From Trichlorobacter thiogenes (GTDB taxonomy: Bacteria > Desulfobacterota > Desulfuromonadia > Geobacterales > Pseudopelobacteraceae): DNA of 33,473 bases. Under the pieces are notes generated by a model, which searched no databases, was not told the origin of the DNA, and worked only from the letters and a program-made list of their open reading frames with translations. Positions 22,466-33,473 of this stretch are shown here, piece by piece (within the stretch, counting starts at the first letter, position 1; each line of letters begins with the position of its first letter). The stretch spans positions 1-33,473 of the forward strand of contig NZ_FUWR01000027.1 of NCBI RefSeq assembly GCF_900167465.1, given 5' to 3'. The position numbers and the translations under genes are program-made.

Positions 22466-23347
22466 ATGGACTTAAACATTGTCAGACTGCATATCTCCCT
22501 TGCACCGCAGACAGTGACGGGTATTGCGCCACTTCTCACCGGTAAAGGTGCGGGTTTTGAAGAGGCGTTACGTACGGTCTGTTGTCTTCACCAGAATCAA
22601 TCCTGCCACATTTGTCCAGCATCAGGTACCTGTGTCGCCCCAGCTTTAATCGCCAGACAGCTTTCTCAAGACCCGGAACTGGTTCGACGGTATCAAAAAC
22701 CAGGGCTTCCTTTTGTTTTTTCTGATCATTCAGATGTAGATGATGGTGATAGTTTATTGTGTCTGAACCTGTTGGGGACAGCCTGCGGTCATTTGCCTCT
22801 CTTTATCAAGGCACTGAATCAGTTGGCTGGTCAAACCGCCTGCATTGGTTTAGCTGCCTGCGATTATCAGAATGCTGCTGTTCAGCTTGATCACCTGTGT
22901 CCAGAGACAGCAGATAATCTTCCGGTATTGGCAGCTGCTGATCTGCTTGCTCAGCTTAGTCACCGTTTCAGTTGCTGCAAACGGATACGGCTTGATCTGT
23001 TGTCACCTCTGCGTTTAACACGTGGCGGCCATGAGCTGACCCGGCTGGAGCCAGACTACTTCATTCGTTCGCTGTTGCGGCGTATCTCATCGCTTGCGGT
23101 GTATTATGGTGGCGGTGTTGATCAGGAACTCTTTCGACATCTGGCCCAACGTGCAACATCGGTATCATTGGTTCGTCAGCTGCCGTCTAATGCTGTCGGC
23201 TCCCATTTGCGTGGGGTTGCAGGCTGTTATGAGCTTGCAGGTCCTTTTGATGAACTTGGCCCGTTTCTGGCATTGGGTGAACAGGTGCATCTTGGGAAAG
23301 GTGCAGCCTTTGGTATGGGGGCTTTTGCTGTTATGGTTATTGGCTGA
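22466..23347 (+). CDS. Orphan Cas6-like RAMP protein with N-terminal cysteine cluster
   Basis: This is a 293-residue protein. The C terminus GEQVHLGKGAAFGMGAFAV (about 271-289) is the glycine-rich loop of Cas6 endoribonucleases, which cut CRISPR precursor RNA. The N terminus has a RAMP-type strand (LNIVRLHISL), then EEALRTVCC and C47-x2-C50-x5-C56, the cysteine pattern of the CRISPR system precrRNA processing endoribonuclease RAMP Cas6 family. HELTRLEPDYFIRSLLRRISSL fits the linker to the second RAMP domain. There is no CRISPR array or other cas gene in the window. The ATG directly follows the sdh terminator's T-run and no SD exists, so how it is expressed is unclear. Family assignment is good; RNA cleavage is untested. 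Confidence 0.72.
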   Translation: MDLNIVRLHISLAPQTVTGIAPLLTGKGAGFEEALRTVCCLHQNQSCHICPASGTCVAPALIARQLSQDPELVRRYQKPGLPFVFSDHSDVDDGDSLLCLNLLGTACGHLPLFIKALNQLAGQTACIGLAACDYQNAAVQLDHLCPETADNLPVLAAADLLAQLSHRFSCCKRIRLDLLSPLRLTRGGHELTRLEPDYFIRSLLRRISSLAVYYGGGVDQELFRHLAQRATSVSLVRQLPSNAVGSHLRGVAGCYELAGPFDELGPFLALGEQVHLGKGAAFGMGAFAVMVIG

Positions 23348-23406
23348 TGTTTGAGCATTATGTAGTATCTGCTTGTATGTATGTTAACTAATTTCAGGAG
23401 GTGAGT

Positions 23407-24006
23407 ATGAAGCTGTCATCAATGCTGTTTTCGGTGCTGTTGTTTTGTGTTGTGTCCAGTGGAGCTATTGCAGGAGATACACTGCCAAAGCCTGATGCCC
23501 TTTCTGATGAAACCATCTATCTTACTGAGCGCCTTTCTAAAAATTACGATACGTTGGTAATTAAGGACTTTTTAGCTGAAAACGCTGAATATTCACGCGT
23601 TAATGACGATGAAAAGGCTACAATTATAAAAATGTTGCCACTTTTAAAGGCAAATTTAGCACTTTCGCTCGAGGCTGAGCTCAAAGCAAAAAATATCTTT
23701 ACAACGATTGTCCGCAATGAGCTTCCGGCAGGCAGTAAAGCGGTGATTTTGGATGGTACGTTCAGTGAGTTTAATGCAGGAAGCAAAGCTGCCAAGTTTT
23801 TTGTCGGTTTCGGTGCAGGCAAGGTGTATATCAAATTTAAGGGGCGTTTGGTAGATGCTGCAACAAATAAGGAGCTGGCTACTTTTGAAGACCGAGAAAC
23901 CGGCTATCGTGGTTCCATGACTCTTGAGGGGTTTGAATCATTGTTTCCCCATCAGGCAAAGGGGATCGGCGAAAACCTGGCAAAATTTCTTGGGAAACTT
24001 TACTGA
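23407..24006 (+). CDS. Exported DUF4410-like protein
   Basis: The gene encodes a 199-residue protein with an N-terminal signal peptide (KLSSMLFSVLLFCVVSSGAIAG, cleavage near residue 22). The C-terminal half reads KAVILDGTFSEFNAGSKAAKFFVGFGAGKVYIKFKGRLVDAATNKELATFEDRETGYRG, the pattern of DUF4410, whose members are often lipoproteins; no clear lipobox is present here. ATG 23407 has AGGAGGTG just before it. The gene has no operon partner, and base composition is more AT-rich than in the sdh operon. Function is not known. Confidence 0.7.
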   Translation: MKLSSMLFSVLLFCVVSSGAIAGDTLPKPDALSDETIYLTERLSKNYDTLVIKDFLAENAEYSRVNDDEKATIIKMLPLLKANLALSLEAELKAKNIFTTIVRNELPAGSKAVILDGTFSEFNAGSKAAKFFVGFGAGKVYIKFKGRLVDAATNKELATFEDRETGYRGSMTLEGFESLFPHQAKGIGENLAKFLGKLY

Positions 24007-24118: not shown

Positions 24119-25072
24119 ATGAACTTACGTCGTTTCTTTAAGCCATATACCTTTGCTCAACTCTATTTTTTTGCTTTTGGGATTCCCAACAATTCCTTTG
24201 GCTCTGTTGATGTTACCGGTGATTGTAACCTGCGCTGTAGCCATTGCTATTTTTTTGAGCAGGAACATCAGCCCGAACTGTCAATCGAACAATGGAAAGA
24301 TAAGTTAGAACGTAGTAAGGCTGATGGTGACCGTTTTTACCAGTGTGCTTGGGTTGGTGGTGAACCGTTGCTAAGGCAGCCATTGATTGAGTTGGGCAGG
24401 TCGTATTTCAAGTTTAATACCGTAACCACAAATGGCTCTATCCCCTTGCCAGACTGGAAGGATGTGAGTTGGTATATATCGGTTGATGGTGGCAGGCAAA
24501 CCCATGATACGCTACGTAACAGGCCCGGCCTGTACGATACGATCAAGCAGACCATTGCTCAGAGTGAAGGGCTTAAAATCACAATCGCCTATTGCATCAC
24601 CCGTGCGAATGTTTCAGAAATTGATGCTGTTTTGGAGGAATGGAGCAAAAACCCAAAAGTCAGAAACCTGTTGTTCAGTTTTTATACCCCGATCAGGGGG
24701 CTTGATGATGATCTTTGGTTGGATTGGGATGAAAAGGATCGGGTTCTGGATGCTCTGATAGATAAGAAGGGAGTCTTTAGAAATTTTATCCTTAACACTG
24801 AGCGATCACTGATGCTCATGAAATCTGAACGTGCAAAATCAGTTACAGATAACTGCCCTTTTGCTGCAAAATCCTTTGCTTATGATCCTGCTGGAAATCT
24901 AAAACAACCATGTATGATGGGTCCTAAGGCTGATTGTAGTCGTTGTGGTTGCGTTGTCCCGTTTTATCTGAAATCACTGACCGATAGAAAACTTGTGCTG
25001 GGTGAAATGATGAAAGGGATGTTTAAAACGCTACGCCAGGGTATGGCTGCGGTACGCTCTGTTGTTAGTTAA
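24119..25072 (+). CDS. Radical SAM protein with SPASM-like C-terminal cysteines
   Basis: This 317-residue enzyme has the [4Fe-4S] motif C36-x3-C40-x2-C43 in GDCNLRCSHCYFF. GGEPLLRQPLIELGR is the SAM-binding GGEP motif. A C-terminal group (NCPF, QPCMMG, DCSRCGC) could hold an auxiliary cluster. The substrate is unknown. No SD is visible before the ATG, and a gap of 75 bases plus a promoter separates it from the next gene, so it may be a companion of the cluster rather than part of its main transcript. It is rather AT-rich. Not recognised as any named radical SAM family such as HpnH. Confidence 0.75.
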   Translation: MNLRRFFKPYTFAQLYFFAFGIPNNSFGSVDVTGDCNLRCSHCYFFEQEHQPELSIEQWKDKLERSKADGDRFYQCAWVGGEPLLRQPLIELGRSYFKFNTVTTNGSIPLPDWKDVSWYISVDGGRQTHDTLRNRPGLYDTIKQTIAQSEGLKITIAYCITRANVSEIDAVLEEWSKNPKVRNLLFSFYTPIRGLDDDLWLDWDEKDRVLDALIDKKGVFRNFILNTERSLMLMKSERAKSVTDNCPFAAKSFAYDPAGNLKQPCMMGPKADCSRCGCVVPFYLKSLTDRKLVLGEMMKGMFKTLRQGMAAVRSVVS

Positions 25073-25098
25073 CAACCAATCCTTGTTGTTTCAGATTA

Positions 25099-25127
25099 TT
25101 GACTTCATTTTGTAGAGAATGTATTTT
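25099..25127 (+). promoter_or_regulatory. Sigma-70-like promoter of the lipid/glycan gene cluster
   Basis: TTGACT (25099-25104) and TATTTT (25122-25127) are 17 bases apart. The start codon of the deacetylase gene follows about 20 bases on. It would drive the run of overlapping genes up to 33145. Confidence 0.5.
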
Positions 25128-25147
25128 GATCAAATTTGTCATGATAG

Positions 25148-25993
25148 GTGTCATGCTTGACTTTATCAGGTTGTAGCGCACTGACAATTGATGTGGAAGA
25201 CTGGTACCATGTTTGCGGTATTGGCCAGCAGACGGTGCCTCCACGGCATTCTTGGCGAGTTGCGCAAAACGTTGAAAAAATAGTAGCTTTGCTTGAGCAG
25301 AATCAAATTAAGGCAACTTTTTTTATGCTCGGCTCTGTGGCTAAGGCTATTCCTGAACTGGCTCCCATGATTGTTGCAAAGGGGCATGAGATAGCCTCCC
25401 ATGGCTATTCCCATACGCTGTTGACGGATATGGATAAACAACAGTTTTTGGATGAATTACGGCGTACTGAACAGGTCTTGATTGAGCAAACCGGTAAGCG
25501 CCCTGTTGGTTATCGTGCCCCTCAATGGTCGGTGTCGCCTGAAACGCCATGGGTGGATGAGCTATTGGCTGAGTCTGGTTATCTCTACGATTCAAGCCGT
25601 AATCCGTTACCTTTTGTTGGTGATGCAGCTGCACCGCGGTATCCGTACCGGATTGATACGCCCTGTGGTTCTCTCTGGGAGGTTCCGCCACTAGTGACGA
25701 AGACAAGTCTTGTTTCTCTTCCCACAGGTGGTGGCTGGGGGTTCAGGCTGTTTCCGCTGGGGCTTATATCAGCAACTATTGAAGCGTATATGCGGGATGC
25801 CGCACCGGCTGTGTTGTATCTGCACCCACGAGAAATTGATCCGGATGGCCCCCGTTTGCAATTGCCACTATTCAAGCGTTTTCTTGCCTATGGCATGCGT
25901 ACAGACGCAACGTCGAGGCTGGCTAACCTGTTGCAACGGTATTGTTTCATGACCCTTGAAGAGATGGTGCGGCAATGGCAACCTGCATCCTGA
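25148..25993 (+). CDS. Polysaccharide deacetylase family protein (XrtA/PEP-CTERM-locus type)
   Basis: This 281-residue NodB-homology domain would remove N- or O-acetyl groups from a saccharide. IDVEDWYHV (D15, E17, D18) holds the catalytic base and metal aspartate; SHGYSH gives metal histidines H85 and H89. RAPQWSVSPETPWVDELLAESGYLYDSS and LHPREIDPDGPR match the DUF3473-type deacetylases that sit in exopolysaccharide loci. The start is ambiguous: GTG 25148 is the longest frame, TTG 25157 has the better spacing to AGGTG, and homologues begin just before ALTIDVED. The last 19 bases overlap the glycosyltransferase gene. No exosortase is visible nearby. Confidence 0.85.
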   Translation: MSCLTLSGCSALTIDVEDWYHVCGIGQQTVPPRHSWRVAQNVEKIVALLEQNQIKATFFMLGSVAKAIPELAPMIVAKGHEIASHGYSHTLLTDMDKQQFLDELRRTEQVLIEQTGKRPVGYRAPQWSVSPETPWVDELLAESGYLYDSSRNPLPFVGDAAAPRYPYRIDTPCGSLWEVPPLVTKTSLVSLPTGGGWGFRLFPLGLISATIEAYMRDAAPAVLYLHPREIDPDGPRLQLPLFKRFLAYGMRTDATSRLANLLQRYCFMTLEEMVRQWQPAS

Positions 25994-26637
25994 TACCGGC
26001 TTATAATGCTGCGACAACACTACGTGCGGTGGTGGATGAGTGTCTGGCTTTTGCTATGCCGCTGGTGGTGGTGGATGACGGCTCTACTGATGGTACTGCC
26101 CAGGTATTGGACGGTCTGCCGGTTACCCTGTTGACCCATTCCATGAACCAAGGCAAGGGGGCTGCCCTCAAAACCGGTTTTGATTGGGCAATTCAGCAGC
26201 AGCATGATGGGGTTGTGACACTGGATGCGGATGGTCAGCATGATCCTTCCGCTATCCCACGTTTGCTTGCTGAAGTTGACAAAAAAGGTTATGATTGTCT
26301 TCTGGCGTCCCGGCACAGTCAATTTGAGGAGATGGCAGGGCTTCGCAAGGTCTGGAACCGTTTCGGGGTCTGGTGCATACGCAAACGGACCGGGTTTGAG
26401 ATTACCGACAGTCAATCCGGTTTCCGGTATTACCGTTCCAGGTTGTTACAAGCAGTACAGCTTGAAAAAAATGGCTATGATCTGGAGATGGAGCTGTTGG
26501 TAAAAGGCTGGAAGGCCGGTTTTAAGATCGGTTCACTACCGGTACCGGCTCGGGTTGCTGATGGTAGGGCAACCAGCCACTATCGACCGGTGCAAGATAC
26601 GGTCAATATCTGTATGACATTTCTAAGATACATGTAG
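25975..26637 (+). CDS. GT2 family glycosyltransferase, dolichyl-phosphate mannose synthase-like
   Basis: This 220-residue GT-A domain reads ILIPAYNAATTLRAVVDE, VVVDDGSTDGTAQVL, NQGKGAALKTGFDWA and LDADGQHDPSAIP (the DxD-like metal site), followed by SRHSQFEE. ITDSQSGFRYYRS and KNGYDLEMELLVKG complete the DPM/DPG-synthase pattern. It would transfer a sugar from a nucleotide or lipid-phosphate donor. It is soluble, without the C-terminal membrane helices that many homologues have. It overlaps the deacetylase gene by 19 bases. Confidence 0.9.
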   Translation: MATCILIPAYNAATTLRAVVDECLAFAMPLVVVDDGSTDGTAQVLDGLPVTLLTHSMNQGKGAALKTGFDWAIQQQHDGVVTLDADGQHDPSAIPRLLAEVDKKGYDCLLASRHSQFEEMAGLRKVWNRFGVWCIRKRTGFEITDSQSGFRYYRSRLLQAVQLEKNGYDLEMELLVKGWKAGFKIGSLPVPARVADGRATSHYRPVQDTVNICMTFLRYM

Positions 26638-26648
26638 AGAGGCGGCCT

Positions 26649-28031
26649 ATGCTGCAATCCTTAAAAACATATACCCGTGATAAAGTAGTATCTTATCTGC
26701 TGAACATGGCAACCAGTTCATCGGATGAGACCTTGATCAAAATGACCCACCTGATGGAAATGATCCCAAAGAAACAATACTACAAGGATCGTATCCGCTG
26801 GATCCGTAATCTTGTGCAACAGAAACACCCCTCCATTGAATTTCCACGCCGGATTCTGAAAGAGTTGCATCCTAATCAACGGGATAAATGGATCACCAAC
26901 CTGGCAATCAACCACCTGCTTTCCGGCACCAACAAGCGTAAAGAATGGGCTGACGAAAACGGATTTTATCCGCCTTCCACCGTGGTTATATCGGTCACCA
27001 TGCGTTGTAACCTGTCCTGCTATGGCTGCTATGCCGGTGATTACAATAAGTCTCTGGAATTAACTCTGGACGAGATTGATGGTGTACTGACCCAGATGAA
27101 GGAGATGGGGATCTTTTTTGCCGTGATCTCCGGTGGTGAACCGTTCTTCATGCAGGGGATCTTTGAACTGTTTGAAAAACATAGCGACATGGCCTTTCTG
27201 GTCTTCACCCACGGCGGCCTGATTGATGATAATCTGGTGCAGCGGCTGATTGAGGTCGGCAATGTCATGCCAGCCTTTTCGCTGGAAGGGTATGAACAGG
27301 AAACCGATGAACGGCGCGGTAGCGGTCATTTCAAAAAAGTGATGAACGCCATGCGTCTGCTGCGGGAGAATGGACTCTCCTTCTGTGGCTCCTTTACCCA
27401 TTCCAGTAAAAATACCGATATCATTACTGATCCAACCTATATTGACTTCCTGCTGGAACAGGGAGTATTTGCGCTCTGGTTGTTTTCCTATGTGCCGGTG
27501 GGACGGGAGCCTGATCCGGCGTTGATGCCGTCACCAGAACAGCGTGATCAACTGCGGCGGGCAACGATTCAGTTCCGGGCCACCAAGCCGATGCTGTTTG
27601 TTGATTTCTGGAATGACGGGCCGATGATCTCTGGTTGTCTGGCGGCCGGACGGAAGTACCTGCACATCAATGCCAGCGGTGATATTGAGCCCTGCGTCTT
27701 TTGTCATTTTGCCGTGGATAATATCCGTCGCACCAGTCTGAAGGATGCGCTGGGGTCACCACTGTTCCGGAAAATCCGTGAAAAACAGGGAGAACATGAG
27801 AACCTGTTGCGCCCCTGCATGTTGATAGATCATCCGGAAAACGGTCGTGAATTCTTTGAAAGTGAAGGGGCCTATCCGACCCATGAGGGTGCTGAAGAAA
27901 TCTTTACCGGACTGGCCGATGAGATGGACCAGTATTCTCGTAACTACGGTGAAATTGCCGATCAGGTTTGGGATGAGGAGTTCAGAGAGCATCCGGCTTA
28001 TAACAAAAAAAACGGAATCTGTAACGGATAA
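26649..28031 (+). CDS. Radical SAM protein, SPASM-type, in lipid/glycan cluster
   Basis: This 460-residue protein has C120-x3-C124-x2-C127 in TMRCNLSCYGCYAGDY, then SGGEPFFMQG for SAM binding. The C terminus contains HINASGDIEPCVFCHFAVDN and LRPCMLIDHPEN, a reduced SPASM/twitch-like cluster. About 110 residues precede the radical SAM core (helical, charged), which is unusual. AGAGG lies 7 bases ahead of the ATG. Its stop codon overlaps the acyltransferase start (TAATG). Substrate not known; position suggests a lipid or sugar precursor. Confidence 0.82.
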   Translation: MLQSLKTYTRDKVVSYLLNMATSSSDETLIKMTHLMEMIPKKQYYKDRIRWIRNLVQQKHPSIEFPRRILKELHPNQRDKWITNLAINHLLSGTNKRKEWADENGFYPPSTVVISVTMRCNLSCYGCYAGDYNKSLELTLDEIDGVLTQMKEMGIFFAVISGGEPFFMQGIFELFEKHSDMAFLVFTHGGLIDDNLVQRLIEVGNVMPAFSLEGYEQETDERRGSGHFKKVMNAMRLLRENGLSFCGSFTHSSKNTDIITDPTYIDFLLEQGVFALWLFSYVPVGREPDPALMPSPEQRDQLRRATIQFRATKPMLFVDFWNDGPMISGCLAAGRKYLHINASGDIEPCVFCHFAVDNIRRTSLKDALGSPLFRKIREKQGEHENLLRPCMLIDHPENGREFFESEGAYPTHEGAEEIFTGLADEMDQYSRNYGEIADQVWDEEFREHPAYNKKNGICNG

Positions 28032-28939
28032 TGGCGCTGTACAGTAACCTGAATCTGTTCTTTATACACCTGTTCACCTGTCTGGTACCTCGCTGGTTAC
28101 ATGCCCCCTTTGCCCTGTTCTGGGGGGGGCTGTTTTATCTGCTGCTACCCAAAAAACGTCGTGGCATACGTTCCAACCTTCGGATTGTTACGGGACAACG
28201 GCAGGTTGAGCATCTTGTTGTTTCTACATTCTACAAATATGCTCGCAACTGGTGCGATGTGATGCTGATGATCCAGCTGCGTGGTAGTCGGCTTCAGGGC
28301 CTGATTGGCAAGCGCAGTTCCGGGCAGCCACTGGAAGATGCCCTTGCCAAAGGCAACGGGGCGATTCTGATCTCCCCCCACTTTGGCAACTGGGAACTGG
28401 GTGGTCTTGGTCTGGCAGACCTGGGCTACAAACTGAATGTCATGACCTTCCCTGAACCGGATGAAAGGGTCAATCAGCAGCGGGAGCAGGTCCGTGCTGA
28501 ACGGGGAATCGGCGTGATCTATGTTGATCGCCATGATACCTCACCGCTGGCAGTCATCGAGGCGGTTAATGCTCTGCGACGGAACGAGATTATCTGTCTG
28601 ATCGGCGATCGTGACGGCTCTTCCAACACGGTTCAGCTTGATTTTTTTGGTCAACCAACGGATATTCCGGTTGGCGCTGCCTATCTAGCCATGGCCACCG
28701 GAGCCCCGGTATTGCCGGTATTTGTTCCGCTCATGTCTGATGGCCGCTATGCCACCCTCATGGATGATCCAATATTCTTTCAGAGCAGCCACGGTCACCA
28801 CCGCCAGTCAATCAAGGCCGGTATGGAGCAACTGATTGCTGTTTTTGAACGGTATATTCGACAGTATCCTGATCAGTGGTATAATTTTTTTGAATTTTGG
28901 GCTGATACTTCCCGTAAGAAAAGGATAGCAGATGAGTGA
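28031..28939 (+). CDS. LpxL/HtrB-type lipid A acyltransferase-like protein
   Basis: This 302-residue protein has one N-terminal hydrophobic segment (about 23-40) and the lysophospholipid/lipid A acyltransferase fold. The HX4E motif is H117-FGNW-E122 in ISPHFGNWELGG. LIGDRDGSS near 194-202 and a downstream GAPVLPVF match the other family blocks. Lipid A enzymes transfer acyl chains from acyl-ACP to sugar-linked lipids. The next gene, overlapping by 8 bases, encodes an ACP, so an acyl-ACP donor is likely. Inclusion here rather than in an lpx locus indicates a specialised paralogue. Confidence 0.9.
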   Translation: MALYSNLNLFFIHLFTCLVPRWLHAPFALFWGGLFYLLLPKKRRGIRSNLRIVTGQRQVEHLVVSTFYKYARNWCDVMLMIQLRGSRLQGLIGKRSSGQPLEDALAKGNGAILISPHFGNWELGGLGLADLGYKLNVMTFPEPDERVNQQREQVRAERGIGVIYVDRHDTSPLAVIEAVNALRRNEIICLIGDRDGSSNTVQLDFFGQPTDIPVGAAYLAMATGAPVLPVFVPLMSDGRYATLMDDPIFFQSSHGHHRQSIKAGMEQLIAVFERYIRQYPDQWYNFFEFWADTSRKKRIADE

Positions 28940-29189
28940 TGAGCTGATTCCCAAAGTAAAACAGATGATTATAGACGCCCTGCGGATTGATGGAATGGAA
29001 GCAGACGAGATTGATAGTGATGCTCCCCTGTTTGGTGAAGGGTTGGGGCTTGACTCCATAGATGCCTTGCAGCTGGTTGTGGCCATGGAGAAGGATTTTG
29101 GTGTGGTGGTGCCTGATGCTGCCACCGGTACCAAGGTGTTTGCTTCTGTGCGGGCCATGGCTGCCTATATTGCTGAAAACCAGAAATAA
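28932..29189 (+). CDS. Dedicated acyl carrier protein
   Basis: An 85-residue helical, acidic carrier. LFGEGLGLDSIDALQLVVAME holds the phosphopantetheine attachment S42 in the DSID motif. FGVVVPDAATGTKVFASVRAMAAYI continues as in ACP-like proteins of aryl-polyene and other specialised clusters rather than as in the housekeeping AcpP. AAGGAT precedes its ATG, inside the acyltransferase gene. It would tether the acyl intermediates that the adjacent FabD-like, thioesterase and LpxL-like proteins handle. Confidence 0.92.
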   Translation: MSDELIPKVKQMIIDALRIDGMEADEIDSDAPLFGEGLGLDSIDALQLVVAMEKDFGVVVPDAATGTKVFASVRAMAAYIAENQK

Positions 29190-29206
29190 CCGATCCAGGC
29201 GCTCTG

Positions 29207-30493
29207 ATGAAAATCCTCTTCCTCTCCCCTGGGTGGCCCAAAGGCCGGTTGTGGGGAGAACTTGGCTTTAAATTTCCTACCCTGTCGCTGGCATCACTGG
29301 CTGCGGTTACTCCGCAGGGCTGGGATGTCAGCTTTCATGACGATGCCATCCGTGCCACAGATTTTGATAACGATGCCGATCTGATCGCCCTGACCGCCAT
29401 GACCGCCCAGGCAACTCGGGCCTATCAGCTGGCCGATGCCTTTCGCAGTCGCGGCAAGACCGTGGTGATGGGGGGCTTCCATGCCAGTAATCTGCCGGAT
29501 GAAGCGCTGCAGCATGTGGACAGCGTGGTGGTGGGGGAGGGGGAGCTTGCCTGGCCTCAACTGCTGGCTGATTTTCAGGCCGGTCGCCTGCAGCAGCTCT
29601 ACCGTGCTGATGGCCTGATCGATACAGCTCTGATTCCTCCGGCACGGCGGGAGATCTTCAAAGGTTCCGGCCATCTCTTTACTAATACCATCCAGACCAC
29701 CCGCGGTTGCCCCTTTGACTGCGAATTCTGTTCGGTCACCGCTTTTTATGGTCGCAAGTACCGCAAACGGCCGGTAGAACAGGTCTTGGTAGAATTGCAG
29801 GAGCTGCGTAAGGCCAACTCCTTTGTCTTTTTTGTGGATGACAACATTGTGGCTGATCGGCGCTATTCATTACCGCTCTTTGACGGGATGAAGGGGATGG
29901 GGCTGAAGTGGCTTTCCCACGCCCCGATTGATTTTGCTGAGGATCAGGAACTGTTGAAGGCTGCCGGTGAATCCGGCTGTGTTGGTATGTTCGTCGGTTT
30001 TGAATCGCTCAATCAGGATTCCCTGGCTGCCATGGGTAAGGTGACCAACAAGGCTGCATCCTACAAGGCCTATGCCCAACAGTTCCGGGACAATGGCATC
30101 GGAATCCTGGGCTCGTTTGTGATGGGCTGTGATGGCGATACCCCGGCGGTTTTTGAACAGACCCTGCGTTTCTGTGAGGATGCCCGGCTTGAGGCCGCCA
30201 TCTTCCCGATCCTGACCCCCTATCCCGGTACCAAGGTGCGCCAGCGCCTTGAGGCAGAAGGGCGGATTATCTCCAACAACTGGCAGGATTACGACATGGA
30301 GCATGTCACCTTCCAGCCCAGGGGGATGACGGTTCAGGAACTGCAGGATGGCTATGATCAAGCCTGCCGCAGTTTCTATTCATGGGGCTCCATCTACCGC
30401 AGGCTCTTCAAACTGCATCGTTCTGTGCAGGTCTTTGGACCGATGAATATCGGTTTCCGCTCAGCCATTCGCAGAAAATGTACTGACGCATGA
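29207..30493 (+). CDS. B12-binding domain radical SAM protein, DUF4070-like
   Basis: This 428-residue enzyme starts with a cobalamin-binding-like Rossmann domain (KILFLSPGW, VSFHDDAI, VVMGGFHAS). The DxHxxG base-off motif is lacking, as in many radical SAM relatives. The radical SAM cluster is C168-x3-C172-x2-C175 in TRGCPFDCEFCSV. LGSFVMGCDGDT and ILTPYPGTKV belong to the class-B/DUF4070 type also found in the hopanoid methylase HpnP. Typical chemistry would be methylation at unactivated carbon or a ring/bond rearrangement. AGG lies 7 bases before the ATG; its end overlaps the FabD-like gene (ATGA). Confidence 0.85.
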   Translation: MKILFLSPGWPKGRLWGELGFKFPTLSLASLAAVTPQGWDVSFHDDAIRATDFDNDADLIALTAMTAQATRAYQLADAFRSRGKTVVMGGFHASNLPDEALQHVDSVVVGEGELAWPQLLADFQAGRLQQLYRADGLIDTALIPPARREIFKGSGHLFTNTIQTTRGCPFDCEFCSVTAFYGRKYRKRPVEQVLVELQELRKANSFVFFVDDNIVADRRYSLPLFDGMKGMGLKWLSHAPIDFAEDQELLKAAGESGCVGMFVGFESLNQDSLAAMGKVTNKAASYKAYAQQFRDNGIGILGSFVMGCDGDTPAVFEQTLRFCEDARLEAAIFPILTPYPGTKVRQRLEAEGRIISNNWQDYDMEHVTFQPRGMTVQELQDGYDQACRSFYSWGSIYRRLFKLHRSVQVFGPMNIGFRSAIRRKCTDA

Positions 30494-31338
30494 CCATTTG
30501 GCTTTTTCCTGGACAGCCGCTGCAACCTGAGCAGGCGACTCCTGATGATGCTGATTTCCATGCCCTGGCTGACCTGTGCCGGGCATACTGCGGCTATGAC
30601 CTGATCACGTACAAGCCACTGGCAGGCCATCCCTTGAGTCATCATACCTGTCTGCAGATCTACGGTGTGGCCATGTCGCTGTATCGCGCCAGAAAATTGC
30701 GCAATGCGGGATCTGTTCCCAGCCTGATCAGTGAGCACTCCCTGGGGATCTACGCAGCGCTCGCTGCCAGTGGCAGTATTGCTGAACAGGATGCCCTGGA
30801 GCTGGTCAGTCGGATCGGTAGCTGCATGTCCCAGATGGGTGCTGTTGAAGAGTATAGCCTGGGCTGCCCCATCGGTCTGCCGATTGATCCGGTGGAAGCT
30901 GCCGCCCGCAATAACGGGGTGTTTGTGGCAAACTACAACACCTCCCGTCATTTTTTACTCGCTGGTAGCAAGCAGGGGATTGAGGCTGCCCTTGCTGAAT
31001 GTCAGGCAGCAGGCGCTTTCAGTGTCAGCAGCTTTCCCTGTGAAGCGCCGCTGCATACGCCGCTGATGGCCGAGGTCAGGGATGATCTTGCAGCCATTGT
31101 TGCGGAGTATCATATTGCAGAACCGCAGGTTCCGTTGATTGAATCGTTTGGCCAGACCTGCCTGACCGCCGCAACTATACCGGCTTTTTTGGTTGATGAA
31201 TTGCAGCAGCCGGTCTACTGGGAGCGTACCTGGAAGGCTGTTCGAGCCACTGGTTTCAGTCGCTGCAGAGAGGTTGGCAGTGGCCAGGCCTTGACCAAGT
31301 TTAACCGATGGATTGATTCGGAGGCAGGTACGTTGTGA
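30490..31338 (+). CDS. FabD-like acyltransferase with altered substrate-site residues
   Basis: This 282-residue malonyl-CoA:ACP transacylase-fold protein opens with IWLFPGQ. The nucleophile is S84 in SEHSLG, where the family normally reads GHSLG. Its partner is H189 in APLHTPLM, and VANYNTSRHFLLAGS is the usual second block. The arginine that clamps the malonyl carboxylate in FabD (RGxxMQ) aligns with isoleucine I109 here (VSRIGSCM), with an arginine one residue earlier. So malonyl specificity is questionable; another acyl group or a non-malonyl role is possible. It is overlapped on both sides by neighbours (4 bases each). Confidence 0.82.
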   Translation: MTIWLFPGQPLQPEQATPDDADFHALADLCRAYCGYDLITYKPLAGHPLSHHTCLQIYGVAMSLYRARKLRNAGSVPSLISEHSLGIYAALAASGSIAEQDALELVSRIGSCMSQMGAVEEYSLGCPIGLPIDPVEAAARNNGVFVANYNTSRHFLLAGSKQGIEAALAECQAAGAFSVSSFPCEAPLHTPLMAEVRDDLAAIVAEYHIAEPQVPLIESFGQTCLTAATIPAFLVDELQQPVYWERTWKAVRATGFSRCREVGSGQALTKFNRWIDSEAGTL

Positions 31339-31766
31339 AAACCCATGAAACTACGATAACCGTTCGCTTTAACGAAGTGGATGCCTACCGGGTTGCCTGG
31401 CATGGCCATTATGTCTGCTGGATGGAGATCGGTCGCAATAACCTGTCCGGGCAGTTTGGTCTTGGGCCGGATGACCTGTTGGCATTGGGCTATCAGGGGC
31501 CGGTGGTGTCGCTTGAGTTGAAATATCTGCGTCCTGCCCTGTTTAATGACGTGGTGACGGTTCGTACCTGGCTGGATGCTGATGCAGCAGCCATGCTGCG
31601 TTTCCGTTGTGAGATGCTGTCAGCAGACGGTCAGCGTCTGGCCAGTGGTCTGGTCTGTCATGCCCTGACAGATATGAACGGCGTACTGCAGTACCGTTTG
31701 CCGTTGGAAGTGGAACAGCGGGTGGCCAACATGCGGGCCTGGCTGGGTGAAGGTGTCTGTCCATGA
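31335..31766 (+). CDS. 4HBT-type acyl thioesterase (YbgC-like)
   Basis: This 143-residue hotdog domain has the 4-hydroxybenzoyl-CoA/acyl-ACP thioesterase signature RFNEVDAYRVAWHGHYVCWMEIGRN; D16 is the expected catalytic aspartate, with H23/H25 nearby. SLELKYLRPALFNDVVTVRTWL completes the domain. Such enzymes release fatty or polyketide-type acids from CoA or ACP. GTG 31335 overlaps the FabD-like stop (GTGA). The end overlaps the next gene's ATG by 4 bases. Confidence 0.88.
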   Translation: MKTHETTITVRFNEVDAYRVAWHGHYVCWMEIGRNNLSGQFGLGPDDLLALGYQGPVVSLELKYLRPALFNDVVTVRTWLDADAAAMLRFRCEMLSADGQRLASGLVCHALTDMNGVLQYRLPLEVEQRVANMRAWLGEGVCP

Positions 31767-33145
31767 AGTTGTTGCTGGTTTCTGCAAATCGCGAACGTTC
31801 TCCCTATCCGGTTTTTCCCCTTGGTCTTGCTTTTCTGGCTGCCCCGCTTAAACACGCCGGTCATCAGCTGGCAGTGCTGGATCTCTGTTTTGAAGCTGAA
31901 CCCCTTGCTGCGCTGCAGGCCACCCTTGCAGCTGAACAGCCTCAAGTCGTGGTCATTTCGTTGCGCAACCTGGATAACGTTACCTGGCCTGATGCCCGTT
32001 CCTACCTGTCTGGTTTGACTGATCTGGTGACGGTTTGCAAAGGCAAGGCAACCGTGATTGTCGGTGGCTCAGGTTTTAGTCTGATGCCGCTTGAGATCCT
32101 GGCAGCCTGCGGTGCTGATATCGGTCTGGTGGGGGAGGGAGAGGAACAGCTTCCACGGCTGCTGGATCGGCTAGGGCAAGGGGCTGATCTGGTCGACCTG
32201 CCTGGTGTTGTGCTGCCAGGGAAAACCGACTATATCCCGCCGCAAACAGTTTCCAAAATCGGCAGTCCTGATCGGGAGCTGTTTGATGTGGCCCGCTACC
32301 TGAAAGAGGGGGGGATGGCCAATCTGCAGACCAAGCGTGGCTGTCCCTTTGGCTGCAGCTACTGCACCTATCCGCTGTTGGAAGGGCAGCAGATGCGGAC
32401 CAGGCCGGTGGCTGAGATTATTGCCGAGATCCGCAGTCTGGTGAATGATCACGGTGTTGATTATCTCTACTTTGTGGATGATATCTTTAACTATCCGGTC
32501 AGTTTTTGCGAACAGCTCTGCACTGCCATGATTGATGCCGGGTTACAGGTTAACTGGTCTGCCTTTATCAATCCTGACTTTATCACACCACAGCTTTTGG
32601 ATCTGATGAAGCAGGCTGGTTGTGATGCAATTGAGTTTGGCACAGATTCAGGCTCCCCTATCATGCTGGAGAGTCTCTGTAAATCGTTTACACTTGAACA
32701 GGTCAGGTCAGCCTCGCTGCTCTGTCGGGAGGCAGGTCTGGATTTTGTCCACTACATCATCTTTGGTGGCCCCGGAGAGACAGAAGAGACCATTCTAGAT
32801 ACCTTTCAGTTGATGGATGAACTCAATCCAACCGCGGTCATCGCCATGACCGGGGTACGGATCTACCCCCGTACTAAGCTGTATCGCACAGCTCTGGAGG
32901 AGGGGATCATTACCACTGAAACAGATCTGCTTCAGCCCACTTTCTATCTGTCTCCGGCCATTAAAGATCAACTTTCAACGATTGTGACCGAGCAGGCAAT
33001 GCAGCGTAAAAACTGGATTGTACCGGGCCTGGAGGTGAATATCAGTGACACCATGTTGGAGGCGTTGCGGATGTTCAAGGTGCGGGGACCACTTTGGAAG
33101 TTGCTGAAGCGGATGGGAAGAAGTAGAATCGCCCCGATGAAATGA
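31763..33145 (+). CDS. B12-binding domain radical SAM protein (second of the cluster)
   Basis: This 460-residue enzyme has an N-terminal cobalamin-binding-like domain (LLLVSANRERSPYPVFPLGLAFLA, VVVISLRNLDN, IVGGSGFSLMP) and the radical SAM motif C194-x3-C198-x2-C201 in TKRGCPFGCSYCTYPL. FGTDSGSPIMLESLCKSFT and FGGPGETEETILDTF are its later blocks. The C terminus ends with a basic amphipathic segment (WKLLKRMGRSRIAPMK) that might touch membrane. NCBI uses the name 'lipid biosynthesis B12-binding/radical SAM protein' for a group I believe similar to this, from memory only. It is the last gene before the IS110 element. Confidence 0.85.
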   Translation: MKLLLVSANRERSPYPVFPLGLAFLAAPLKHAGHQLAVLDLCFEAEPLAALQATLAAEQPQVVVISLRNLDNVTWPDARSYLSGLTDLVTVCKGKATVIVGGSGFSLMPLEILAACGADIGLVGEGEEQLPRLLDRLGQGADLVDLPGVVLPGKTDYIPPQTVSKIGSPDRELFDVARYLKEGGMANLQTKRGCPFGCSYCTYPLLEGQQMRTRPVAEIIAEIRSLVNDHGVDYLYFVDDIFNYPVSFCEQLCTAMIDAGLQVNWSAFINPDFITPQLLDLMKQAGCDAIEFGTDSGSPIMLESLCKSFTLEQVRSASLLCREAGLDFVHYIIFGGPGETEETILDTFQLMDELNPTAVIAMTGVRIYPRTKLYRTALEEGIITTETDLLQPTFYLSPAIKDQLSTIVTEQAMQRKNWIVPGLEVNISDTMLEALRMFKVRGPLWKLLKRMGRSRIAPMK

Positions 33146-33155
33146 TGCAAAGCTG

Positions 33156-33199
33156 ACTACTCATCTGCCACAGAGCAACTGTGTTCTCTGTCAAGTAGT
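33156..33199. repeat. Nested inverted repeat at the IS110 end
   Basis: ACTACT (33156-33161) pairs with AGTAGT (33194-33199), and inside them ACAGAG (33170-33175) with CTCTGT (33186-33191). This two-tier stem lies between the last radical SAM stop and the transposase stop codon. It may be part of the element's terminal non-coding region; IS110-family elements encode a structured guide (bridge) RNA in one end. Whether this stem belongs to it is not established. Confidence 0.4.
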
Positions 33200-33204
33200 A
33201 ACAT

Positions 33205-33473
<269 letters not shown>

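Follow-up and report, generated by a model that had tools for sequence, protein, structure and literature searches.

The window considered here is a stretch of 33,473 nucleotides from Trichlorobacter thiogenes (NCBI RefSeq assembly GCF_900167465.1, contig NZ_FUWR01000027.1), and corresponds to a complete contig (C12, 1-33473) of that genome (G000; genomes, contigs and loci are cited by our labels G, C and L). Its subject is a row of ten open reading frames (ORFs), w1 to w10, all on the + strand at 24119-33145, where a sequence-only reading of this DNA had placed ten genes. That reading had described them as mostly overlapping by 1-19 bases, which holds for six of the nine junctions, the other three being gaps of 75, 11 and 17 bases, and its gene classes agreed with Pfam and NCBIfam for all ten.

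The row starts with a radical S-adenosylmethionine (rSAM) protein, w1 (24119..25072; PF04055), followed by a polysaccharide deacetylase of XrtA type with DUF3473, w2 (25148..25993; PF01522, PF11959), a family 2 glycosyltransferase (GT2) nearest to polyprenyl-phosphate GalNAc synthases, w3 (25975..26637; PF00535), an rSAM/SPASM protein, w4 (26649..28031; PF04055 and PF13186), and an LpxL/PatA-type acyltransferase with an HX4E motif, w5 (28031..28939; PF03279). Next come an acyl carrier protein (ACP) with a DSI site, w6 (28932..29189; PF00550), a B12-binding rSAM protein with DUF4070, w7 (29207..30493; PF02310, PF04055, PF13282), a FabD/MdcH-like acyltransferase, w8 (30490..31338; PF00698), a 4HBT/YbgC-type thioesterase, w9 (31335..31766; PF13279, PF03061), and a second B12-binding rSAM protein, w10 (31763..33145), which belongs to TIGR04072 (rSAM_ladder_B12) with 400.8 bits against a cut-off of 360. 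The CX3CX2C motif is present in all four rSAM proteins. Two of them, w7 and w10, have B12-binding domains, which agrees with the two B12-type enzymes read from the sequence.

Among the families listed (the best 25 for w1, w4 and w10), NCBIfam cut-offs were passed only by w10 and by w6 (NF006617, 70.9 against 70 bits). The deacetylase w2 reached 216.8 bits with the XrtA-system model TIGR03006 (cut-off 276.2), w3 reached 91 bits with PpgS (NF058614, cut-off 370), and w5 reached 123 bits with its best model, the PIM acyltransferase NF005919 (cut-off 209), and 70.2 bits with the best lipid A model (cut-off 248). With scores below the cut-offs among the families listed, a lipid A, hopanoid or XrtA polysaccharide locus of standard type was ruled out. 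Several residues are invariant in these enzymes: D15, E17, H85 and H89 of w2 in 45 of 45 aligned rows, the His and Glu of HX4E in w5 in 40 of 40, and the DS of w6 in 50 of 50. The rows for this and the following active-site comparisons are relatives of at least 45% identity without internal stops, some contigs being represented twice, so the invariance is partly by choice.

The contig stops inside an IS110-family element (33176..33473, - strand; PF02371), whose transposase C-terminal fragment occupies 33205-33471. The terminal 305-311 bases of the window have four further copies near contig ends, and a fifth copy of 94 bases; the copies match the window from 33163-33169 onward. A search of the same genome for ketoacyl synthases (KS) led to contig C21, which has a KS pair near its beginning. 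This contig opens with the other end of such an IS110-type element (reverse translation with GIDVSK), a stretch found at five other places in the genome too. Beyond the element, C21 carries genes for a ketoreductase (KR), a KS (KS1), a second KS assigned below as a chain-length factor (CLF), a FabZ-like dehydratase (DH), LolA, LolB and MMPL. These genes overlap or are spaced by 2-3 bases, and the last three match PF03548, PF03550 and PF03176 (LolA-like, LolB-like and MMPL/RND, the latter for resistance-nodulation-division transporters). Large KS-bearing ORFs also occur elsewhere in the genome, on C35 and C38 (open frames of 2304-2561 codons).

In relative G010 nothing interrupts the spacer between w10 and KR; this empty site aligns with the window flank up to 33175 at 172 of 175 bases and with the flank on C21 at 363 of 400. 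KR and KS lie directly 3' of w10 in the complete genome G002 and in G003, G004, G007, G008, G010 and G014. By this comparison an IS110 insertion probably parts the ten genes (module A) from the seven on C21 (module B), a join that rests on relatives because IS ends sit at several contig ends. The spacer, common to G010, bears CACAGAG repeats (window 33146-33175; locus L027 from 295). The sequence-only reading had excluded an aryl polyene pathway because the ten genes include no ketosynthase or ammonia lyase. The missing ketosynthase is an assembly artefact, since the contig breaks in the IS110 element and the KS opens C21, and with KS, CLF, KR, DH, LolA, LolB and MMPL all belonging to the cluster the set of ten is incomplete and an exclusion based on a missing ketosynthase is not supported. 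The case cautions against judging gene clusters from contig ends.

Conservation was surveyed in 127 genomes of the order Geobacterales with completeness of at least 80%. Window-type w10 was taken to be any match that scores 348-411 bits and either reaches profile position 440-441 at its end or is truncated by the edge of a contig (G011, G071); matches of similar score ending at 430-434, a third tier, and G029, with two pieces summing to the score of the high-scoring, ladder-type members described below, were left out of the count. So defined, w10 is present in 74 of the 127 genomes, and KS1 (58-100% identity) likewise in 74; both occur in 73, neither in 52, w10 only in one (G120, 83% complete) and KS1 only in one (G097). 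The two genes co-occur beyond chance, and since these genomes are related by descent a Fisher value for the association is not a clean probability. They lie within 10 kb of each other in 55 of the 73 genomes, 45 kb apart in one (G079) and on separate contigs in 17. In G011 the final 33 residues of w10 are on the KS contig, so the break falls inside the w10 gene, and in G013 w10 is at a contig end with the KS on a different contig.

Gene order was compared by tblastn over 77 loci, several from one contig twice. Leaving out repeats and the distant loci L119-L126, L130, L131 and L133, 43 loci could be counted, no two of them, on inspection, having contigs of equal length: w8, w9 and w10 were found in all 43, w7 in 41, ACP in 37, w2-w4 in 36, w5 in 35, KR and KS in 34, CLF and DH in 31, LolA in 29, MMPL in 19, LolB in 18 and w1 in three, with the complete w2-to-MMPL set in 12. 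The figures are lower bounds, since contig or fetch limits truncate many loci. The comparison across Geobacterales that the sequence-only reading had proposed thus returned a conserved order, and its view of one locus, built around an ACP and combining radical enzymes with a sugar/acyltransferase arm, holds in the relatives. By sequence, the ten genes make up the front half of a predicted two-module cluster conserved in many Geobacter relatives.

The loci vary in part of their content. Many relatives have one or two additional B12-rSAM genes between w4 and w8. The first gene, w1, is an optional member, absent from the eight other genus loci that extend past w2; its relatives lie directly 5' of the deacetylase gene in L105, L108 and L109 (64-68% identity) and 5' of w7 in L131 (50%). 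Upstream of w1, between sdhB and the cluster, the window has a Cas6-family gene (22466-23347; PF10040), with relatives of 31-73% identity similarly placed in further members of the genus and in some of the family, and between cas6 and w1 a gene for a DUF4410 protein (23401-24006) that was not found in the 77 loci compared. In G002 the genes for w8 and w9 are separated by a type I restriction-modification set together with a DarT/macro-domain pair (L028 17420-19999, L029 1-5852), and in G007 two extra ORFs, one with pentapeptide repeats, lie between the LpxL and ACP genes (L037 7560-8860).

Active-site residues were compared in the chain-building enzymes. KS1 retains Cys161, His294 and His331 (C-H-H) in 41 of 41 rows, and its predicted structure is poor (predicted local distance difference test score, pLDDT, 47.5). 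In the second KS the nucleophile position is Phe (38) or Tyr (1) in 39 rows, Phe166 in the copy of T. thiogenes, and the protein ends early, on which grounds it was assigned as a CLF. The acyltransferase w8 has Ser84 and His189 in 52 of 52 rows, and scores below both the FabD and the MdcH cut-offs. An Arg at the position of FabD Arg117 selects malonyl; the corresponding column in w8 holds Ile in 36 rows, Val in ten, His in two and Leu in two (50 of the 52 rows printed). An Arg stands one position earlier (R108) in 49 of 52 rows, and a shifted role is possible.

The AlphaFold2 model of w10 (pLDDT 88.0, predicted template modelling score 0.89) has as its best match among solved structures the cobalamin-dependent tryptophan methylase TsrM (Z 37.2; root-mean-square deviation 2.2, 444 residues, 25% identity), followed by AprD4 (30.1), MgmA (29.6) and OxsB (28.6). 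The best 50 fold matches listed include no B12 enzyme known to modify lipids, which excludes nothing. According to excerpts of published work, the lower face of cobalamin in TsrM is blocked by Arg69, which favours a heterolytic transfer of the methyl group, and the unique iron is held by Glu273, which keeps a radical from forming (PMC8992657, PMC13331322). In a profile alignment, with numbers counted by hand, Arg68-Asn69-x-Asp71 of w10 falls on Arg69-Asn70-x-Asp72 of TsrM; Arg68, Asn69, Asp71 and Asn72 are invariant in 44 of 44 rows (25 window-type, 14 ladder-type and five others). The DxHxxG motif was not found in w10 or w7.

Within TIGR04072, w10 is a member by score yet lies outside the branch of high-scoring members. 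Fourteen genomes of the order have a w10 relative at 614-686 bits, here called the ladder type, with G029 as a possible fifteenth; among the 14, only G066 has the window type too. Three long-branch reference rows were dropped from the tree, in which the 25 rows of window type and the 14 of ladder type split at 100/99 support; the program warned of long branches meeting. Two ladder-type loci, L076 and L077 (from G066 and G067), combine two KS/CLF pairs and two dehydratase genes with LolA, MMPL and an aromatic amino acid lyase. L076 has three B12-rSAM genes, and L077 two that were recognised; ApeP-like, ApeI-like and DUF3261 matches in L076 are under the Pfam cut-offs. No lyase was found in L078, the third 20-kb ladder-type locus examined. 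Because L076 and L077 have the lyase and none was found in the window-type loci examined, B12-rSAM enzymes, as annotated by sequence, occur in two sorts of aryl-polyene-like gene sets in the order, one having an aromatic lyase and the other not.

The most constant neighbour of w10 is KR, which lies no more than 1 kb 3' of it in 47 of 62 loci with room, further off in four, and was not found in 11 (contigs fetched twice are counted twice). Among 395 genomes sampled evenly across the phylum, 75 gave matches with E values no worse than 1e-110; the weaker ones take in the third tier (G036:C9) and perhaps ladder-type genes, so that 75 is not a count of window-type genes. L147 and L150 keep the row B12-rSAM, LpxL, ACP, acyltransferase, 4HBT, B12-rSAM, w7, w10, KR, and on the Acidobacteriota contigs L119, L120, L123 and L131 relatives of w7 and w10 occur together. 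L146 and L151 combine deacetylase, KS genes, methyltransferase, rSAM/SPASM, a w10 relative (43-44%), KR, ACP, DH and GT2, with an AMP-binding enzyme containing an AMP-binding_C_2 domain additionally in L151.

The cluster is real, conserved and of a known general kind. What appears new is its two-module make-up, the near-perfect co-occurrence of the modules, the split from the ladder branch, the pairing of w10 with KR, the TsrM-like Arg, and an acyltransferase without the malonyl Arg. By analogy, it is best read as a type II pathway resembling that of aryl polyenes but with no aromatic lyase. Excerpts on the aryl polyene (APE) genes of Escherichia coli describe KS/CLF, KR and DH as building the polyene, acyltransferases as attaching the lipid anchor, and the RND transporter with LolA- and LolB-like proteins as exporting to the outer membrane, several of these steps being proposals (PMC8253772).

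We propose, with a probability of roughly 0.6, that the cluster is a two-module system making an outer-membrane lipid by the following steps, modelled on the observed gene content, linkage in relatives, active-site residues and predicted fold of w10, with putative roles for w1 and w4. The FabD-like w8 would load a neutral acyl starter onto the ACP w6, as suggested by the absent malonyl Arg. KS/CLF, KR and DH would extend the chain, which may stay unsaturated and polyene-like because the cluster genes include no enoyl reductase. The cobalamin rSAM enzymes w7 and w10, joined in many relatives by one or two more, would methylate the ACP-bound chain at carbon or close it into rings, with w10 and KR working together. 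GT2 w3 and deacetylase w2 would make a polyprenyl-linked amino sugar or similar acceptor; the amino sugar is suggested, not shown, by the adjoining of a GalNAc-synthase-like GT2 and a deacetylase. The LpxL/PatA-type w5 would transfer the chain to this acceptor, w9 would serve as an editing or release thioesterase, and MMPL, LolA and LolB would carry the lipid to the outer membrane. For the chain we favour an aliphatic or branched polyene type, which would be modified while on the ACP and attached to an amino-sugar lipid, because the cluster has additional rSAM enzymes and no aromatic starter genes were found.

Several observations weigh against this proposal. The join of C12 to C21 is drawn from relatives rather than from a read across the IS, and there are other IS ends. 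In four genomes of the phylum (L142-L145) only w10 and KR are recognisable among the genes searched (the L142 stretch stops 255 bases past KR), which suggests that w10 may act on ordinary fatty acid synthesis intermediates. No KS was seen within the fetched stretch beyond KR in L147 (7.5 kb) or L150 (only 1.8 kb), and the distant relative L121 has a KS 8 kb away; KS/CLF may thus be a Geobacterales addition, as module A in distant genomes sits beside KR without a near KS. A housekeeping enoyl reductase could still act despite there being none in the cluster. In w10 the column of TsrM Glu273 is Ile241, which leaves the reaction type open; with the Arg kept and the Glu replaced, w10 has one of the two special TsrM features. 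No product, transcript or mutant of the cluster is known, and no description of its product appeared among the literature matches listed, which were mostly from outside subscription journals.

The alternative that survives best, itself unlikely, is a methyl-branched fatty acid rather than a polyene: w10 would alpha-methylate a beta-ketoacyl-ACP, KR would reduce it, and the branched chain would be placed on a glycolipid. The constancy of the w10-KR pair, alone in L142-L145, is consistent with this, as is the excerpted account that TsrM Arg69 favours methyl transfer to a nucleophilic carbon, an enolate being such a carbon (PMC8992657, PMC13331322). Ordinary C-methyltransferases could do that job, however, Glu273 is not conserved in w10, and three further rSAM enzymes and the KS/CLF pair would be left unexplained.

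Slightly less probable is ladderane-like chemistry, in which w10 and its partners would turn a polyene into rings, strained or carbocyclic, along the lines proposed for anammox bacteria. The sequence-only reading had allowed ladderanes as only an analogy; that kinship now stands at the level of the family, through the TIGR04072 score and the Phe of the CLF, and is stronger than mere analogy. An excerpt of Rattray 2009 (PMC2649909) names Geobacter members and Pelobacter carbinolicus as having clusters similar to that of Kuenenia, and its Table 2 gives Phe163 in both G. sulfurreducens NP_951518 and Kuste2805, from which we infer that NP_951518 is the CLF of the G. sulfurreducens version of the cluster. 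According to an excerpt of another study, kuste2803, a SAM radical gene of Kuenenia, forms a group with a FabF and a non-canonical FabB (kuste2804, 2805), and no ladderanes were detected when anammox genes were expressed in E. coli (PMC4790861). Against these points, Rattray 2009, as excerpted, reports no ladderanes in D. psychrophila despite synteny (PMC2649909); neither a phytoene-desaturase-like nor a phenylacetyl-CoA-ligase-like gene is among the 17 cluster genes; the 14 high-scoring ladder members branch apart from w10; and w10-type genes occur in more than half of the order sample, yet no account of ladderanes from Geobacter appeared among the literature matches listed. A 2023 survey, as excerpted, lists ladderane-labelled clusters in Desulfobacterota and other phyla, their function unknown outside Scalindua (PMC9902471).

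A true aryl polyene cluster with its starter genes elsewhere is improbable. It would account for the shared set of KS, CLF, KR, DH, LolA, LolB, MMPL, LpxL and GT genes, and in L149 a lyase relative does lie 2.5 kb from a distant (42%) w10 relative, on the opposite strand. The aromatic amino acid lyase (PF00221), however, was found in none of 15 genus genomes (nine at least 90% complete) and was detected in five of 14 control genomes, and no window-type locus examined contains it. No AMP-binding enzyme is present among the 17 cluster genes, to which that search was confined, other starter routes not having been searched. KS1 also scores lower to 6qsp, which we take to be an aryl-polyene KS, than to FabF and other KS entries. 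That a glycan/acyl module (w1-w10) and a KS/export module are two unrelated conserved loci that merely adjoin is very improbable: module B (KR to MMPL) does lie elsewhere in some genomes (G005, G006 and G012, in which ispA/dxs come after w10 and the KS is on another contig, and 45 kb off in G079) and 4-7 kb separate the modules in four loci of two genera (L080-L083), but presence or absence of w10 and KS1 agrees in 125 of the 127 genomes and the genes do not form separate conserved loci overall.

Our proposal of a two-module outer-membrane lipid pathway has a bolder version, which we hold doubtful. Geobacterales and relatives would make an outer-membrane polyene glycolipid of a class not yet described, its chain C-methylated or ring-closed on the ACP by cobalamin enzymes with a TsrM-like cobalamin pocket (Arg68) and an open radical-SAM cluster (no Glu273); their chemistry would lie between TsrM and the classical radical methylases and form a two-step unit with KR, and the wider family would be the source of the ladderane-associated enzymes. 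If the two-module proposal is true, more than half of the sampled Geobacterales (74/127 with w10-type genes) carry genes for an unknown envelope lipid, which would matter for metal-reducing, current-producing bacteria whose outer membrane is their working surface, and the order would offer a culturable group for asking what the 'ladder' B12 radical-SAM family does.

Known systems resemble the cluster in part. With the malonyl transferases MdcH and FabD, w8 shares the fold family and the Ser-His pair and differs in the malonyl Arg, mostly Ile or Val. With TsrM, w10 shares the fold and the position of Arg69, and differs in Glu273 and in substrate. AprD4, second in the fold list, works with a reductase partner, AprD3, and w10 is likewise paired with a reductase gene; AprD4 acts on a sugar diol, and nothing at the cluster points to a diol substrate. 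The ladderane-associated type II fatty acid synthesis clusters of Kuenenia and Desulfotalea share a SAM radical/B12 gene, FabF with a Phe-bearing KS paralogue, ACP, deacetylase-like and GT genes, a likeness drawn, for the Kuenenia loci, from their published description. Clusters of the Rattray 2009 type differ in having phytoene-desaturase-like and phenylacetyl-CoA-ligase-like genes, and L146 and L151 look nearer to them than the window cluster does. With apeA-R of E. coli, listed in an excerpt of the source as KS/CLF, KR, DH, ACP, thioesterase, acyltransferase, glycosyltransferase/acyltransferase, LolA-like, RND transporter and LolB-like genes (PMC8253772), the cluster shares KS/CLF, KR, DH, ACP, thioesterase, acyltransferase, glycosyltransferase, LolA-like, LolB-like and RND/MMPL functions; unlike apeA-R, it has glycosyltransferase and acyltransferase as separate genes, one DH, a deacetylase, a FabD-like acyltransferase, and three to five rSAM enzymes per locus, four of them here.

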